Below are positions 36,039-47,542 of a stretch of DNA of 64,000 nucleotides, one piece after another. This DNA is from an uncultured Bacteroidota bacterium (lineage in GTDB: Bacteria > Bacteroidota > Bacteroidia > Flavobacteriales > Flavobacteriaceae). The notes beneath the pieces are model-generated. The model saw nothing but the letters and a program-made list of their open reading frames with translations, was not told the DNA's origin and ran no database searches. Position 1 is the first letter of the stretch; every line of letters begins with the position of its first letter. The stretch covers positions 62,001 through 126,000 of the forward strand of contig CACIJH010000001.1 in assembly GCA_902586905.1 (NCBI GenBank), read 5' to 3'. The translations under genes were made by a program, and so were the position numbers.

Positions 36039-37097
36039 TTGAAAACATTGCCAAATCTCAATCCGCTTCGATTTGTGCTAGCGTTTCTTGTTATTTTATT
36101 TCATGTACCTCAGTTTTTTATGAACAGAGGTCTTCCATGTTACAATGGTATGCCCATTTTCAACAAAGGAACTGAAGCTGTTTACGTATTTTTTGCATTG
36201 AGTGGTTTTCTTATCATTCGACTTCTTTTCCATTAAAAGACAATATCTAAGAACATTAATATTGGAAGGTTTTACATGAGAAGAATTCTTAGAATTTTCC
36301 CTCTTTACTTTCTAGTTTTATTTTCTGGTCTTTTTTACTACAATGTGTTTCTTAAATATATCGGCATCGATTTTGACCATCAGAACAACATCGTCGAGGT
36401 CTTGGCTTATTATATCTTTTTTTTACCAAATATTGGAGCAAAGCTATATGACCCAGGTGGAGCTTTGGAAGTACTTTGGTCAATTGGGATAGAAGAACAG
36501 TTTTATATTTTGGTTGCACCATTGATATTTCTTTTGAAGAAAAAGCATATCATCCCCTTTTTTATTTTATTCACATTCGCCTACTTTATTGTTTTCGCTT
36601 TACATTATTTTTCTTTTCTAGTTGAATATGATTTTCTATACTTCTATCTGTCGGCTGGTGGAGTAATGGGCCTAATAGATTTAAAGTTCCGTTTTGGAGA
36701 GAAACTAAACGCTAATTATCAATACTTAATTCTAATCTGTTTTGCTTTATACTTCTTTTTAGATTTTGGTGGCTTCTCTAGAATTTCAATTCATTTGATT
36801 GGGATGATTTTATTTCCACTCACCATTTTGAGTTTGTCAGTTCACCCACCTTTTATAATCAAGTCTAAGTTTATAAATTATTTGGGGAAAATATCATATG
36901 GGATTTATATGTACCATGCTTTTTCCATGCAAGTCGTCGGATTTTTCATTCTGAAAATAAACAATGAGAATCTTCCTAGCACTTTAGTGATATTTCTATC
37001 ATTTTTTTTAGTCGCTGTAATCACAATAATTGTAGCTCATATTTCATATTTTGCATTTGAAAGGAAGTTTATTTCGATGAAAAATAAATATCGTTAA
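36039..37097 (+). pseudogene. Acyltransferase family 3 (OafA/YrhL-like), interrupted by an in-frame stop
   Basis: The frame encodes about 352 residues of a multi-pass acyltransferase: LNPLRFVLAFLVILFHV at the start, FFALSGFLIIRLLF, then, after a TAA at 36234-36236, FYMRRILRIFPLYFLV, GGALEVLWSIGIEEQF and SYGIYMYHAF. Both parts are in the same frame, so one codon change (for example CAA, GAA or AAA to TAA) explains the break; it is not a frameshift. The family O-acylates surface sugars. It is AT-rich, on the opposite strand and set between dtd and mazG-like, which look like former neighbours, suggesting insertion followed by decay. A sequencing error at the TAA would make it intact. Confidence 0.82.
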
Positions 37098-37099
37098 GT

Positions 37100-37552
37100 T
37101 TACTCTTTATTTTTTGAATCCATCAAAATCGTGACTGGGCCATCATTGCTAAGCTGCACATCCATCATCGCTCCAAAAACACCTGTTGAGACAGATCGTC
37201 CGAGGGCATTTTCACATTCCTCCACAAAGCTTTGATACAAAGGCAAGGCTGTTTCTGGCTTAGCAGCATCGAAATAGGAGGGTCGGTTGCCTTTTTTGGT
37301 CAGTGCGTGGAGTGTGAACTGACTAACCACCAACAACTCACCCTGTGTATCTTTTAGCGATAAATTCATCACATCGTTTGTATTGTTAAAAATACGAAGT
37401 CCGATCGTTTTTTTTACCAACCATGACACATCTTCCATGTCATCATCGTGTGTGATGCCCAAAAAAACCAATAGTCCTTTGGAAATCGATCCTACGATCT
37501 CTCCATCGACTCGAACACTTGCTTCGCTAACACGTTGAATAACGACCCTCAT
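37100..37552 (-). CDS. dtd: D-aminoacyl-tRNA deacylase
   Basis: 150 residues. MRVVIQRVSEASVRVDGE, VVSQFTLHA (the SQFTL active-site loop) and the DTD Gly-cis-Pro equivalent NRPSY are all present. It frees tRNA mischarged with D-amino acids or glycine. Five bases after rsgA; probably the last gene of the pheA transcript before the acyltransferase insertion. Confidence 0.96.
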   Translation of the reverse strand: MRVVIQRVSEASVRVDGEIVGSISKGLLVFLGITHDDDMEDVSWLVKKTIGLRIFNNTNDVMNLSLKDTQGELLVVSQFTLHALTKKGNRPSYFDAAKPETALPLYQSFVEECENALGRSVSTGVFGAMMDVQLSNDGPVTILMDSKNKE

Positions 37553-37557
37553 AAATT

Positions 37558-38490
37558 CTAAAAATCAGTTCTATACTGTCGGTCCTCACCAGCAAGAATT
37601 TGGGTGTAACTTTTATAACGTGAAGCAGCAATATCTCCTGATGCTACTGCTGATTTCACTGCACATTTTGGCTCGTCTATGTGCAGACAGTCGTTGAATT
37701 TGCATTGGCTTTTACGATCAAAAAATTCAACAAAATAATCCCCTAGTTCTTGTGGGGAAAATGCAATCATACCAAATCCTCTAATCCCTGGCGTATCAAT
37801 GATTTTTGCCCCAAAATCCAGCTCATGCAATTCGGCATGTGTTGTTGTGTGCTGCCCTTGCTGATGCTGCTCCGAAATTACTTTGGTTTTGATATTCAAC
37901 ATCGGAGCAAGTGTGTTAACAAGGGTTGATTTCCCCACGCCACTGTGACCAGAAAGCATACATACTTTAGATGCCATTAGTGTTTTAACTTGATGGACGT
38001 TGGTTCCTTTCAATGCCGAAATTTCTACACAATGATAGCCAATGTCATCATACACTGCTTTGAGCTGGCGCAGTTCTGTCAACTCTTGGCTTGTGTAGGT
38101 ATCTTCTTTGTTGAACAACAACACAACTTCAATTCCAAATGCCTTGGCGGTTGCCAAAAACCGATCGATAAAGGCAGTATAAGTCACAGGATTGTTGAGT
38201 GTAATCAATAAAAATGCAATATCAATATTGGCAGCTAGAATATGTATTTGCTTGGATAGGTTAACCGATTTTCGAACGATATAGTTTTTGCGATCATGGA
38301 TGTGATGAATCACTCCTTCATCGGGATTTTCGTCGATAGAAATGGTCACTCGATCGCCTACCGCAACAGGGTTGGTGCTTGAGATTTGATCTGTTCGAAA
38401 TTTACCTTTTATGCGACAAGAAATCAGTGTACCTGTATCTGTTTTTACATTGTACCAACTTCCTGTCGATTTATAAACCGTTCCTTCCAC
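37558..38490 (-). CDS. rsgA: Ribosome small subunit-dependent GTPase RsgA
   Basis: 310 residues: N-terminal OB fold, circularly permuted GTPase (G4 FNKED, G1 GHSGVGKST, G3 DTPG in that order) and C-terminal zinc segment CKFNDCLHIDEPKCAV. RsgA works in late 30S maturation, releasing RbfA. It follows the DAHP synthase gene by 26 bases on the same strand. Confidence 0.96.
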   Translation of the reverse strand: MEGTVYKSTGSWYNVKTDTGTLISCRIKGKFRTDQISSTNPVAVGDRVTISIDENPDEGVIHHIHDRKNYIVRKSVNLSKQIHILAANIDIAFLLITLNNPVTYTAFIDRFLATAKAFGIEVVLLFNKEDTYTSQELTELRQLKAVYDDIGYHCVEISALKGTNVHQVKTLMASKVCMLSGHSGVGKSTLVNTLAPMLNIKTKVISEQHQQGQHTTTHAELHELDFGAKIIDTPGIRGFGMIAFSPQELGDYFVEFFDRKSQCKFNDCLHIDEPKCAVKSAVASGDIAASRYKSYTQILAGEDRQYRTDF

Positions 38491-38516: not shown

Positions 38517-39599
38517 TTAGGTATTGATCACCTTCTCTTGATGGTTAATCGATTCCTGGTGAATTGCTTTGAACATACGCAGTACAAACTCTTCACTCAA
38601 CCCATGTCCTTCGCCTTCCAAAATCATCTTTCCAAGGATTTCATTCCAACGCTTGGATTGCAAAACAGCAACATTATGCTCTTTTTTTAACGTACCAATA
38701 TCAACAGAGATATTCATTCTTTTTTCAAGTGTTTCAAGGATCGAGTGGTCGATGACGTCGATTTGTGCGCGAAGTGTATCGAGCTTATTCACATAGCTCT
38801 CAGCTTCTGCTGTTGTTTTTCGAATGCGAAGATCTTTCATCATTTGAACAAGAGTGTCAGGTGTGATTTGCTGTGCAGCATCACTCCAGGCATTGTCAGG
38901 GTCTCGATGGGTTTCAATCATCAAACCCTCAAAATTCAAGTCTAAGGCTGTTTGTGATACATCTTGCAAAATATCTCGACGCCCACAAATGTGAGAAGGA
39001 TCACAAATTAATGGAAGATCGGGAAATCGATTTTGCAGTTCGATCGCCAATTGCCATTCTGGGTTGTTGCGATATTTTGTCTTGGCATAGCTTGAAAATC
39101 CACGATGGATCACACCTAATTTTTTGATGTCAGCTGTGTATAAACGCTCTATCCCCCCAAGCCAAAGAGCCAAATCAGGATTGACTGGGTTTTTTACAAG
39201 TACAATTTTATCTGTGCCTTGAAGAGCATCGGCAATCTCCTGCACAATAAAGGGGCTAACAGTAGAACGAGCACCGATCCAGAGCACATCAATGTCTGCC
39301 TCCAGTGCCAGCTTTACATGATCCTTATTTGCCACTTCGGTGGCGGTCATCAGACCCGTTTCTTCTTTGACGCGCTGCAGCCACTTTAATCCAATGGCGC
39401 CAACACCCTCAAAATTTCCAGGGCGTGTTCTTGGTTTCCAAATTCCTGCACGATAAATTGTCGCATCTGTATCTTTCAGTTGATGTGCAATATCCATCAC
39501 TTGTTCTTCCGTTTCTGCGCTGCAAGGACCAGCAATGACTAGGGGGTGAGGGAGATCAAAGGCATGCAGCCATTCTCCCATGGCTTTATTATTTTCCAT
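38517..39599 (-). CDS. Bifunctional DAHP synthase / chorismate mutase
   Basis: 360 residues. Residues about 1-255 are a type I-beta (KDPG-aldolase-like) DAHP synthase: LVIAGPCSAETEEQV, RAGIWKPRTRPGNFEG, LPLICDPSHICGRR. Residues about 270-355 are an AroQ-type chorismate mutase helix bundle (LRAQIDVIDHSILETLEKRM). The mutase domain may also serve as allosteric sensor for prephenate. One protein thus catalyses the first shikimate step and the branch point to Phe/Tyr. Overlaps tyrA by 11 bases. Confidence 0.95.
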   Translation of the reverse strand: MENNKAMGEWLHAFDLPHPLVIAGPCSAETEEQVMDIAHQLKDTDATIYRAGIWKPRTRPGNFEGVGAIGLKWLQRVKEETGLMTATEVANKDHVKLALEADIDVLWIGARSTVSPFIVQEIADALQGTDKIVLVKNPVNPDLALWLGGIERLYTADIKKLGVIHRGFSSYAKTKYRNNPEWQLAIELQNRFPDLPLICDPSHICGRRDILQDVSQTALDLNFEGLMIETHRDPDNAWSDAAQQITPDTLVQMMKDLRIRKTTAEAESYVNKLDTLRAQIDVIDHSILETLEKRMNISVDIGTLKKEHNVAVLQSKRWNEILGKMILEGEGHGLSEEFVLRMFKAIHQESINHQEKVINT

Positions 39600-40452
39600 T
39601 TGTTTTATTTTCAGGTTTTAATATGTGTCTAATCTTATTTATATTCTTCATTTCTTCCACTAATGTGGTGTAATCATCATTTGCCAATAGGGATTTAAAA
39701 TGCTCCATATTGGAAATGTATTCGTCTAAGGTTTCAATAACGTTGTGTTTGTTTTGTCGAAAGATTGGCATCCACATTTCGGGCGAACTCTTTGCCAAAC
39801 GAACTGTAGAGGAGAAACCACTACCAGCCATATCGAATATGTTTTGCTCATCAGCTTCCTTTTCCATAACAGTTTTTCCAAGCATAAATGAGGTGATATG
39901 CGATAGGTGTGATACGTAAGCAATGTTTCTGTCGTGCTCGCTGGGGTCAATCTCACGCATATGCATTCCCAAATTAGTGAAGATAGCATGTGCACGCTTC
40001 AACAAATCTGGTCTTGTTTTTTGTGTTTCACAAAGCATATTGACCTTGCCTTGGTATAGGTTGCGAATGGCAGCTTCTGGTCCTGAAAATTCAGTTCCTG
40101 CAATTGGGTGGCATGCCAAAAACTGCTCGCGCTTTGGATGCTCAGATACCGATTCGCAAATAGCTGTTTTGGTCGAACCCATATCAATGACCAATGTGTT
40201 TGGACCTATTGCATTGAGTACACTGGGCAAAATATCGACAGTGGCTGTCACTGGTATAGCAATGGAAACAAAGTCCATGTCTTTCATCTCATCTATTGTC
40301 GACTGGTGATCAATCAAACCCAATTCCTTTGCATTTGCCAATGTTGATGCTCTTCGACTTATGCCATAGATCGTAACACTTGGATGTGCGCTTTTCAGAT
40401 CCAATGCCAATGATCCATTCATCAAACCAACACCAATTAATCCTACTTTCAT
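39589..40452 (-). CDS. tyrA: Prephenate dehydrogenase
   Basis: 287 residues. NAD-binding start GLIGVGLMNGSLALDLK, DMGSTKTAI, CHPIAGTEFSGPEAA and SHLSHITSFMLG motifs identify TyrA. It oxidatively decarboxylates prephenate to 4-hydroxyphenylpyruvate for tyrosine. No ACT or mutase domain is attached; the mutase is supplied by the next gene. Overlaps the aminotransferase by four bases. Confidence 0.94.
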   Translation of the reverse strand: MKVGLIGVGLMNGSLALDLKSAHPSVTIYGISRRASTLANAKELGLIDHQSTIDEMKDMDFVSIAIPVTATVDILPSVLNAIGPNTLVIDMGSTKTAICESVSEHPKREQFLACHPIAGTEFSGPEAAIRNLYQGKVNMLCETQKTRPDLLKRAHAIFTNLGMHMREIDPSEHDRNIAYVSHLSHITSFMLGKTVMEKEADEQNIFDMAGSGFSSTVRLAKSSPEMWMPIFRQNKHNVIETLDEYISNMEHFKSLLANDDYTTLVEEMKNINKIRHILKPENKTNGK

Positions 40453-41597
40453 TTGTCCAATCGATTTAAAGCTTCTGTGATCTGACTTTTCTCAACACAC
40501 AACGAGAAACGTATATATCCTTGACCAGCACTTCCGAAGATAGTTCCTGGTGCTAAGAAAATATGTTTCTCCTGCAGTAGTTCGTCGATGAAATCCTCGC
40601 TGTTTGTATGTCCTTCTGGAAGTTTTGCCCAAACAAACATTCCACTGTTATTCCTGCTAAAGATACAGCCCATGGCTTCTGCCAGTTTCCACACTTGTTC
40701 TCTTCGTTCTTGGTATACAGCATTGTTATGATCAAACCACGCTTGTGGCTGTTGCAAGGCAGCAATAGCACCTTGCTGGATGCCATAAAACATACCCGAA
40801 TCCATATTGCTTTTGACTTTAAGCACATGGTTGATATTGTCTTTCGATCCACTCAGCATTCCCATTCGCCAACCTGCCATGTTGAATGATTTACTTAGCG
40901 AATTGAGCTCCATGATGTTTGATTTATCCTTTTGGTTTTGAAATATGCTTTTTGGGTGATCTGTGAGCACAAAACTATAGGGATTGTCATTCACCAATAG
41001 AATTTCATTTTGAGCAGCCCATGCAATGAGATCACCCAGCAGTTGCGAATCAATCGATGTGCCAGTGGGCATGTGTGGACTATTGATCCACATCAAACGA
41101 ATCTTGGTACAGTCAAGGCTTTTTAGCTCGTCGAGATTTGGTTGCCAATGATTCTTTTCGTCGAGATTATAAAACACAGGCTCGGCTTCCACCAATCGAG
41201 TGACGGAAGTATAGGTTGGATAGCCTGGGTTAGGCACCAGCACTTGATCGCCAGGGTTGAGAAAAGCCATTGAAATATGCATTATCCCTTCTTTAGAACC
41301 AAGCAAAGGCAAAATTTCATTTGCTGGATTGAGTGCTACATCATATTTGTTTTGATAAAAATCTGCAATCGCTTCGCGCAATGCAGGGATGCCCTGATAG
41401 CTTTGGTATTTGTGTGCTGTGGGGTGCGACATACTGTTATGCAATGCATCAACTACCTCCTGAGGTGGTGGTAGATCGGGACTGCCGATACCCATATTGA
41501 TCACTGGCTTACCCTCAGCAATCATTGCATGTACCTCTCGCAATTTTTTGGAGAAATAATATTCATGAACACGATCTAATCTTCTTGCTGTTATCAT
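40449..41597 (-). CDS. Class I/II pyridoxal-phosphate aminotransferase
   Basis: 382 residues. PLP lysine in SLSKSFNMAGWRMG, INMGIGSPDLPPPQEV near the start, WINSPHMPTG and RFSLC near the end. It belongs to the aspartate aminotransferase superfamily. Set between pheA and tyrA with four-base overlaps on each side, it most likely transaminates phenylpyruvate and 4-hydroxyphenylpyruvate, the products of its neighbours. Aspartate or LL-DAP aminotransferase-like activity cannot be excluded from sequence. Confidence 0.92.
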   Translation of the reverse strand: MITARRLDRVHEYYFSKKLREVHAMIAEGKPVINMGIGSPDLPPPQEVVDALHNSMSHPTAHKYQSYQGIPALREAIADFYQNKYDVALNPANEILPLLGSKEGIMHISMAFLNPGDQVLVPNPGYPTYTSVTRLVEAEPVFYNLDEKNHWQPNLDELKSLDCTKIRLMWINSPHMPTGTSIDSQLLGDLIAWAAQNEILLVNDNPYSFVLTDHPKSIFQNQKDKSNIMELNSLSKSFNMAGWRMGMLSGSKDNINHVLKVKSNMDSGMFYGIQQGAIAALQQPQAWFDHNNAVYQERREQVWKLAEAMGCIFSRNNSGMFVWAKLPEGHTNSEDFIDELLQEKHIFLAPGTIFGSAGQGYIRFSLCVEKSQITEALNRLDK

Positions 41598-42415
41598 GAT
41601 TTTGATTGGTATTCACCTAGGATTTTGAATGAGGTTGCCATAATTTTCAAAAGGGACTTGGCTTTACGATAGTCGTCAGGGTTATCAAAGGTCACATCGA
41701 TAAAAAAGGCATACTTGCCAGGGGTTTTAATCACTGGAAGGGATTGAATTTTAGTGAGGTTCAATTTGCAATCACTCATCACGTTGAGGGCTGTTGCCAG
41801 GCTTCCACGCTTGTGATTTAAAACAAATTTCCAAGATGCTTTTGAAATATTTGGAATCGTTTGATCTGCCGATTTTTGAACGATCACAAAACGAGTAACA
41901 TTGTTTTTAATCGTTTGAATCGACTCGCTTATGACTTGAAGACCATATAAGTCTGCTGCCAGCTGACTGGCAATTGCCCCTTTTCCAATTTGATTGTTAT
42001 CGCTGATTTCTTTCGCAACAGCTGCAGTGTCTGAACTTTCGACAAGTTTTATATGAGGGTGTGCATGGAAAAATTGCTTACACTGCAAAAGCGCCATCGG
42101 ATGGGAATGTACTTCATGAATATCTGAAATGCTTTGCCCAGGCATGGCCATCAGGTTGTGAGTGATGCTCAGCAAATGTTCCCCTACGATAGACAAGTCG
42201 TATTGATCGAGTAAGGCATAGTTGGGTAAAATCGAACCTGCAATAGAGTTTTCGATCGCCATGACAGCTTGTTTGCAATTGTCATTCACAACCGACTGTA
42301 CGAGTTGGTCGAAAGAATCACATGCCAATACCTCTGTTTGATTTCCAAAATATTGCTGTGCCACCTCATCGTGAAATGACCCTTTGATTCCTTGTATTGC
42401 AACTGTTGTCTTCAT
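41594..42415 (-). CDS. pheA: Prephenate dehydratase
   Basis: 273 residues. AIQGIKGSFHDEVAQQYFG, the catalytic segment NNVTRFVIVQK (TRF motif) and a C-terminal ACT domain (LNVMSDCKLNLTKIQSLPV) that binds phenylalanine for feedback control. It converts prephenate to phenylpyruvate. First structural gene of the Phe/Tyr operon; its ATG (42415) lies three bases after the T tract of a leader terminator, so its expression depends on read-through of the attenuator upstream. Confidence 0.96.
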   Translation of the reverse strand: MKTTVAIQGIKGSFHDEVAQQYFGNQTEVLACDSFDQLVQSVVNDNCKQAVMAIENSIAGSILPNYALLDQYDLSIVGEHLLSITHNLMAMPGQSISDIHEVHSHPMALLQCKQFFHAHPHIKLVESSDTAAVAKEISDNNQIGKGAIASQLAADLYGLQVISESIQTIKNNVTRFVIVQKSADQTIPNISKASWKFVLNHKRGSLATALNVMSDCKLNLTKIQSLPVIKTPGKYAFFIDVTFDNPDDYRKAKSLLKIMATSFKILGEYQSKS

Positions 42416-42418
42416 ATC

Positions 42419-42449
42419 AAAAAAAAAGCCCTGATGTTGTTGTCAGGAC
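42419..42449 (-). terminator. Attenuator terminator of the Phe/Tyr operon
   Basis: On the minus strand GTCCTGA (42443-42449) pairs with TCAGGGC (42428-42434), one U-G pair, around an 8-base loop, directly followed by nine T (42419-42427). It lies between the leader peptide stop and the pheA ATG, three bases before the latter. The 5' arm GTCCTG can alternatively pair with CAGGGT (42487-42492) at the end of the leader reading frame. Confidence 0.88.
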
Positions 42450-42477
42450 TTTTTTGTGTTTTTTTCATCGTGTATTA

Positions 42478-42543
42478 TTACAAACCACCCTGCTCCGTTT
42501 GAGAAGTATAATAAGCGTTGTAATAGTAAAACGAGTTGTTCAT
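42478..42543 (-). CDS. Phe/Tyr leader peptide (attenuator), 21 residues
   Basis: A 22-codon frame with ATG at 42541-42543 and TAA at 42478-42480. Residues 5-12 are FYYYNAYY: five Tyr and one Phe within eight codons, which is far from chance. It precedes the pheA-aminotransferase-tyrA-DAHP synthase/mutase operon and is followed by an intrinsic terminator. This is the plan of ribosome-mediated attenuation: scarce Tyr/Phe stalls the ribosome, exposing the antiterminator segment; plentiful supply lets it reach the stop and cover that segment. It begins about 5 bases from the predicted transcript start, so the leader mRNA would be nearly leaderless. Confidence 0.85.
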   Translation of the reverse strand: MNNSFYYYNAYYTSQTEQGGL

Positions 42544-42551
42544 AACGATTG

Positions 42552-42582
42552 CAAATGTAAGCGCATCTCTCGAAAAAACAAA
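42552..42582 (-). promoter_or_regulatory. Phe/Tyr operon promoter (TTTG-N19-TACATTTG)
   Basis: On the minus strand, TTTG (42579-42582) and TACATTTG (42552-42559) are separated by 19 bases, the textbook Bacteroidota -33/-7 pair. Transcription should begin near 42546-42548, just before the leader peptide ATG at 42543. Confidence 0.78.
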
Positions 42583-47436: not shown

Positions 47437-47481
47437 TTACTTTTTAGCGAAGAAGAAATGCGATAAGTCTCTAAAAAGTAA
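47437..47481 (-). promoter_or_regulatory. SAM-II expression platform hairpin
   Basis: The 11-base arms TTACTTTTTAG (47471-47481 on the minus strand) and CTAAAAAGTAA (47437-47447) are perfectly complementary around a 23-base loop. The second arm sits 5-16 bases before the metK ATG, where a ribosome binds; no T tract follows, so control is probably translational. The first arm directly abuts the aptamer. Confidence 0.75.
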
Positions 47482-47482
47482 A

Positions 47483-47533
47483 GCTGTTTTAGCACTTTTT
47501 TTGAGAGGTTGCAATCAGTCAAATCCTTCCTCT
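47483..47533 (-). ncRNA. SAM-II riboswitch aptamer
   Basis: On the minus strand the 51-base block follows the SAM-II layout: P1 arm AGAGG, then GATTTGACTGATTGCA (matching the conserved GAUUU...UUGCA core), P1 return CCTCT, an A-rich spacer ending AAAGT, and the conserved GCTAAA. CTG in the loop and CAG at the 3' end can form the H-type pseudoknot. The class is known mainly from Alphaproteobacteria and some Bacteroidota, upstream of Met/SAM genes, as here. Confidence 0.9.
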
Positions 47534-47542
47534 TTTGCGTGG

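Follow-up and report, generated by a model that had tools for sequence, protein, structure and literature searches.

A candidate leader-peptide attenuator with Phe and Tyr codons upstream of pheA in Flavobacteriaceae and other Bacteroidia

In the genome of an uncultured marine Flavobacteriaceae bacterium pheA is preceded by a short open reading frame rich in Tyr and Phe codons, which is followed by an intrinsic terminator. We regard this element as very probably a ribosome-mediated transcription attenuator sensing charged tRNA-Tyr and tRNA-Phe, an assignment that draws on the sequence of its parts, their conservation, their covariation and the specificity of the codons. The window, meaning the whole stretch of DNA analysed, is 64,000 nucleotides long. 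A Tyr/Phe attenuator had been proposed at this site in an initial annotation of the window, together with a search for conserved Tyr/Phe codons and alternative pairing in relatives. When this search was carried out, the codons, the terminator and the alternative pairing were found to be conserved across the family and in much of the class, which supports the proposal.

Leader region and operon in the window

The element occupies the minus strand of the intergenic gap that separates pheA from a GDSL-type lipase gene. Since this upstream gene is divergent from pheA, the terminator serves no upstream gene on the same strand. A promoter of the form TTTG-N19-TACATTTG, a 21-codon frame with FYYYNAYY, a hairpin and nine T had been annotated here at coordinates that all proved right (Table 1). 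FYYYNAYY occupies codons 5-12 and a spacer of 22 bases separates the frame from the terminator hairpin. The core arms of the stem, GTCCTGA (42449-42443) and TCAGGGC (42434-42428), are followed by the T tract (42427-42419), which ends 3 bases before the pheA ATG (42415). The predicted terminator fold has an energy of -15.2 kcal/mol (z -5.5 in comparison to shuffles).

Table 1. Positions of the leader elements and of the genes behind them in the window.
Feature	Position	Strand	Details
Bacteroidota-type promoter	42552..42582	-	TTTG 42582-42579, 19-nt spacer, TACATTTG 42559-42552
Leader peptide ORF	42478..42543	-	MNNSFYYYNAYYTSQTEQGGL, then stop; 21 codons; sensor codons Phe5 Tyr6 Tyr7 Tyr8 Tyr11 Tyr12
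Possible 1:2 hairpin	42468..42534	-	MFE fold of leader; Tyr codons pair with ORF 3' end/stop region
Putative antiterminator strand (segment 2)	42481..42493	-	core CAGGGT 42492-42487; overlaps last leader codons
Predicted intrinsic terminator	42419..42455	-	13-pair stem, core GTCCTGA/TCAGGGC, nine-T tract
pheA, prephenate dehydratase (proposed controlled gene)	41594..42415	-	PF00800, E 3.9e-58
Class I/II aminotransferase	40449..41597	-	PF00155, E 2e-63; 4-nt overlap with pheA
tyrA, prephenate dehydrogenase	39589..40452	-	NF006307, 359.5 bits against a cut-off of 295; PF02153/PF20463
Bifunctional DAHP synthase/chorismate mutase	38517..39599	-	PF00793 + PF01817
rsgA-like GTPase	37558..38490	-	ORF; 26-nt gap, same strand
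dtd-like D-aminoacyl-tRNA deacylase, putative	37100..37552	-	ORF on same strand

In the window 8 bases lie between the TACATTTG box and the leader ATG, and the same 8 nt were found in the genus mates shown. Transcription would thus start a few bases 5' of the ATG, and given the short distance between box and ATG the 5' UTR of the leader is probably only a few bases long. In 166/187 leaders a TAnnTTnG box is present in the 45 nt that precede the ATG of the leader, compared to 41/777 control windows further upstream. Leaderless mRNAs account for 5.5% in Flavobacterium psychrophilum according to PMC9723704.

Consecutive genes from pheA through the aminotransferase and tyrA to the DAHP synthase/mutase all overlap. 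Further downstream follow an ORF which, as in the initial annotation, we take to be rsgA-like from its sequence, and the dtd-like gene. Both are probable, unproven members of the operon, and the gene order suggests that they might respond to the attenuator as well. An opposite-strand ORF for a membrane protein, acyltransferase-like by eye, is located at 36276-37097 (+) between the dtd-like gene and mazG-like/aroA-like genes. Elsewhere in the window a SAM-II riboswitch (RF01726, 75.6 bits) was detected at 47479-47538 (-), upstream of S-adenosylmethionine synthetase-like and methionine-synthesis-like genes that were named by sequence only.

Proposed mechanism

From this layout we infer a transcription start, ribosome stalling, termination and a response to amino acids along the following lines. 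RNA polymerase would initiate shortly before the leader ORF, and translation of this ORF by a ribosome would begin. In the presence of charged Tyr and Phe tRNAs the ribosome would reach the stop codon and cover the antiterminator strand, so that the terminator forms and an RNA of about 125-130 nt is released. When Tyr or Phe is short, the ribosome would stall in the FYYYNAYY run, leaving the antiterminator strand free to pair with the 5' arm of the terminator before the 3' arm has been synthesised; transcription would then continue into the pheA-aminotransferase-tyrA-DAHP synthase/mutase operon. In the untranslated leader the 1:2 hairpin could possibly hide the antiterminator strand, as the predicted fold suggests.

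Conservation of leader and terminator

We located pheA homologues in four samples (relatives, family, phylum and class) and scanned up to 420 bases upstream of pheA for a short ORF with at least 4 Phe/Tyr in 12 codons and, no more than 90 bases behind it, an intrinsic terminator with a T tract after the stem. This detector found both elements in 173/182 upstream regions, mostly one per Flavobacteriaceae genus. The count rises to 174/182 when one region cut by a contig end (L065) is added, in which the tail of the leader and the terminator were recognised by eye. In L030, which is negative by the detector, the element lies about 0.5 kb further upstream of pheA. Real absences on present evidence include L077/L078, where pheA directly follows another gene, and L039. 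With a stricter threshold of at least 5 Phe/Tyr in 12 codons, again together with a terminator, 171/182 real regions scored. Among the controls, 6/910 dinucleotide shuffles and 5/182 reverse complements reached this threshold, as did 4/1116 stretches taken from elsewhere in the same loci.

In members of the class that belong to other orders, leader and terminator were present in 14/16 genomes of a first sample and, at a threshold of at least 4 Phe/Tyr, in 10/20 regions of a second one. For the phylum outside the class, no convincing leader was found among 54 pheA upstream regions. Exceptions outside the class are L081, L083 and L084, in which a flavobacterium-like pheA is preceded by a Phe/Tyr leader; here the gene may have been acquired horizontally along with its leader. 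Covariance-model hits weaker than about 1e-4 were mostly chance-like. Two such weak hits, L319 and L329, show by eye the end of a reading frame and a terminator before an RNase III-like gene and were judged to be chance-like.

Across 187 leaders Phe makes up 22% and Tyr 16% of the residues. Phe occurs in 187/187 leaders and both residues occur together in 186/187; both synonymous codons are used for Phe and likewise for Tyr.

Terminator and antiterminator

Compensatory changes were observed in 6/7 pairs of the terminator stem among 60 relatives, with 38 two-sided changed cells versus 8.9 in shuffles, and the signal was lost when the partner strand was slid. Such a stem bears on the alternative that the leader acts on mRNA stability or on the translation of pheA rather than on termination. 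In many members the distance from the end of the terminator to pheA is no more than about 30 nt, and an effect on initiation is possible there as well. Yet in the 173/182 regions positive by the detector a T tract comes after the covarying stem, and some terminators are located about 70-130 nt or even ~0.5 kb ahead of pheA, a distance too great to influence initiation directly. We therefore give this alternative hardly any credence and keep to transcription attenuation.

The pairing that had been proposed for the window is present in the sequence as described: CAGGGT and GTCCTG can form six pairs, of which two are G-U, and UUU/AAA pairing follows beyond two mismatches. The duplex of this antiterminator with the terminator 5' arm reaches -6.4 kcal/mol and is not above chance, a fraction of 0.575 of synonymous-codon randomisations being as good. 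The nearest sister species carry CAGGGC and their antiterminators reach -10.6 kcal/mol. Support for the antiterminator thus comes from sequence comparison with relatives and not from the weak pairing of the window itself. The pairing register shifts by at least one base between subfamilies and varies little within one. For this reason we used duplex energies in relation to synonymous randomisation and a table of stem cores instead of covariation in a single alignment. The mean antiterminator energy of 187 leaders is -12.5 kcal/mol, versus -8.6 kcal/mol for synonymous-randomised ORFs (Wilcoxon p 4e-30, with p-values that ignore shared ancestry) and -7.3 kcal/mol for shuffles. The search was confined to the 3' end of the ORF, so that the position of the antiterminator is partly imposed. 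For the commonest stem cores, the exact complement occurs mostly in those leaders whose terminator has the core in question (GTCTCG 31/70, GTCCCG 13/26, CCCGGC 5/6); off-diagonal cases are few, except between related cores. Pairing between the sensor codons and the end of the ORF was also stronger in real leaders, with -16.1 for their own 5' part versus -10.8 with a shuffled 5' part (185 leaders).

Geometry and folding of the leader

For the geometry we assumed an E. coli-like ribosome footprint and a restricted search region for the antiterminator. All leaders (187/187) contain at least 3 Phe/Tyr codons at which a stall would free the antiterminator core, and in 146/187 a ribosome at the stop codon would cover at least 75% of this core. 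We then folded the window RNA as it would be before the 3' arm exists. With a ribosome placed at codon 8 the antiterminator formed in the model, with the ribosome at the stop codon it did not, and without a ribosome the leader hairpin was predicted. When codon 12 was occupied instead, a different pairing prevailed. In equilibrium folding the terminator wins in every modelled ribosome state of the window, so the switch would have to act during transcription.

The antiterminator of the stalled state formed in the folding model for 187/187 real leaders, versus 141-147/187 of the synonymous-randomised ones. Ribosome-masked folding thus separates real leaders from the null modestly and is weak evidence by itself. 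Without a ribosome the model still formed the antiterminator in 136/187 leaders, hence the 1:2 hairpin would not always be decisive.

A leader hairpin in the ribosome-free fold, like a conserved structured 5' region with a terminator at its end, would also be expected if the amino acid were sensed by a riboswitch, a T-box or an RNA-binding protein, with the leader ORF being incidental. No Rfam family matches the leader locus at gathering thresholds, Bacteroid-trp RNA (RF01692) and the T-box included, and the T-box has no match anywhere within the window at its gathering threshold. In the RNAalifold consensus of 60 leaders the terminator appears as the sole structured domain. Codons for the matching amino acids are, on the other hand, conserved, in frame and at the right distance. 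Sensing by such an RNA or protein appears extremely improbable to us, and a translating ribosome remains the preferred sensor.

Codons follow the pathway

The most informative comparison is that of leaders before other operons, whose codons match the respective pathway in the sequences at hand. In the same genome as the window a His leader MKKNTHIHHNIALSQTS (HIHH) with terminator is located upstream of hisG (L312 1220-1325), and a Trp leader MKNINTWWSALNAQS (WW) with terminator before a chorismate-binding trpE-type gene (L313 from 786). The latter leader has no Rfam match at the gathering threshold, Bacteroid-trp RNA included. A leader with HHHHFH precedes hisG in a further genome (G088).

We also analysed 19 Flavobacteriaceae genomes without a detected pheA; these have no PF00800 match either, and some of them are incomplete. 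In six of the 19 genomes (L336, L338, L339, L340, L341 and L347) a leader containing TGG TGG precedes the DAHP synthase/mutase gene together with a terminator, the tandem Trp leaders being located about 70-140 nt upstream of this gene. The corresponding leader of another pheA-less genome (L337) contains a single Trp codon. WW is absent from all 187 pheA leaders. In a genome with no detectable pheA (L316 197-320) a Tyr-only leader MKNLNNTYYYYPILTRRIGQ (NTYYYY) with terminator precedes a gene for a PF00351 aromatic amino-acid hydroxylase. Apart from these, at L317 ~206-336 and L323 ~182-309 a terminator directly precedes an MFS-type transporter gene and follows a short ORF that has Cys codons near its end.

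The short aromatic peptide is conserved and shows family-wide motifs such as FYFYFFF, as would also be the case for a small aromatic-rich peptide, e.g. of the membrane, that has a function of its own and whose terminator merely ends its own transcript. Such a peptide would not account for His codons before hisG, Trp-Trp before trpE and before the DAHP synthase of pheA-less genomes, and Tyr codons before the hydroxylase. Moreover, variation of its C-terminus goes along with that of the terminator stem, and the nucleotide sequence at the 3' end of the ORF is under more constraint than the peptide alone would impose. We consider a peptide with its own function very improbable in comparison to an attenuator.

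Tentatively, the leader attenuator of Bacteroidia might be a sensor of modular design, in which the loss of a pathway is followed by a change of the codons to a new target. Phe/Tyr codons at the full operon would then have given way to Trp-Trp at the lone DAHP synthase/mutase in pheA-less genomes and to Tyr alone at the hydroxylase, a course of events that we hold to be possible rather than probable. Scores of the pheA covariance model on the Trp leaders are intermediate; these leaders may descend either from the pheA leader or from the leader of the trp operon.

Relation to known attenuators

Ribosome-mediated attenuation is a textbook principle. The pheA attenuator of E. coli (pheL) consists of a Phe-rich leader peptide, alternative hairpins and a terminator before pheA, and the element described here shares leader peptide, alternative hairpins and terminator with it. 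In contrast to pheL, it combines Tyr with Phe codons, and the operon behind it serves Tyr synthesis as well and supplies the common pathway. Further differences are the Bacteroidota promoter, the presumably short 5' UTR and an antiterminator strand that lies inside the last codons.

In Bacteroidetes the leader of another amino-acid operon, Bacteroid-trp RNA (RF01692; PMC2864571), has been discussed as resembling a Trp leader with terminator and antiterminator. It belongs to the Trp operon, however, and at the gathering threshold its model matches neither the pheA locus of the window nor the trpE leader of the same genome. Candidate uORFs bearing Phe/Tyr codons near shikimate genes were reported in 2019 from a survey of five bacterial genomes, one of them SAR11 HIMB5 (PMC6429828). 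These are likewise short ORFs before genes of the shikimate pathway; they come from other bacteria, and the main text of that report does not mention Flavobacterium.

According to the initial annotation a Phe/Tyr attenuator is not known to have been described in this phylum, which holds only in part. A report of 2021 (PMC9723704) already described a structured 5' element before the pheA gene of F. psychrophilum, at the same gene and in the same family as the leader in the window. This element was derived from transcriptome data of one species and is described as conserved in other Flavobacteriaceae genera and lacking an Rfam match. Attenuation by leader peptides is inferred in the same report for regions upstream of amino-acid operons, while its main text names neither the Phe/Tyr codons nor the alternative pairing at pheA. 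The device has thus been partly reported before; what is new is its breadth, the anatomy of the switch and the natural codon replacements.

The control of Phe and Tyr synthesis in Bacteroidota has been little studied, and leader-peptide attenuation in this phylum is mostly predicted. Promoters and translation initiation of these hosts differ from those of E. coli, as described in PMC9723704. The attenuator described here appears to occur in a large part of the class, and its codons seem to go with the pathway concerned. The leader offers a concrete target for reporter studies in a cultured flavobacterium, and the pheA-less genomes with Trp codons provide a ready comparative test of what it senses. 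If the retargeting of codons is true, these genomes would represent natural codon-replacement experiments, in organisms whose leaders have very short 5' UTRs and which lack Shine-Dalgarno sequences.
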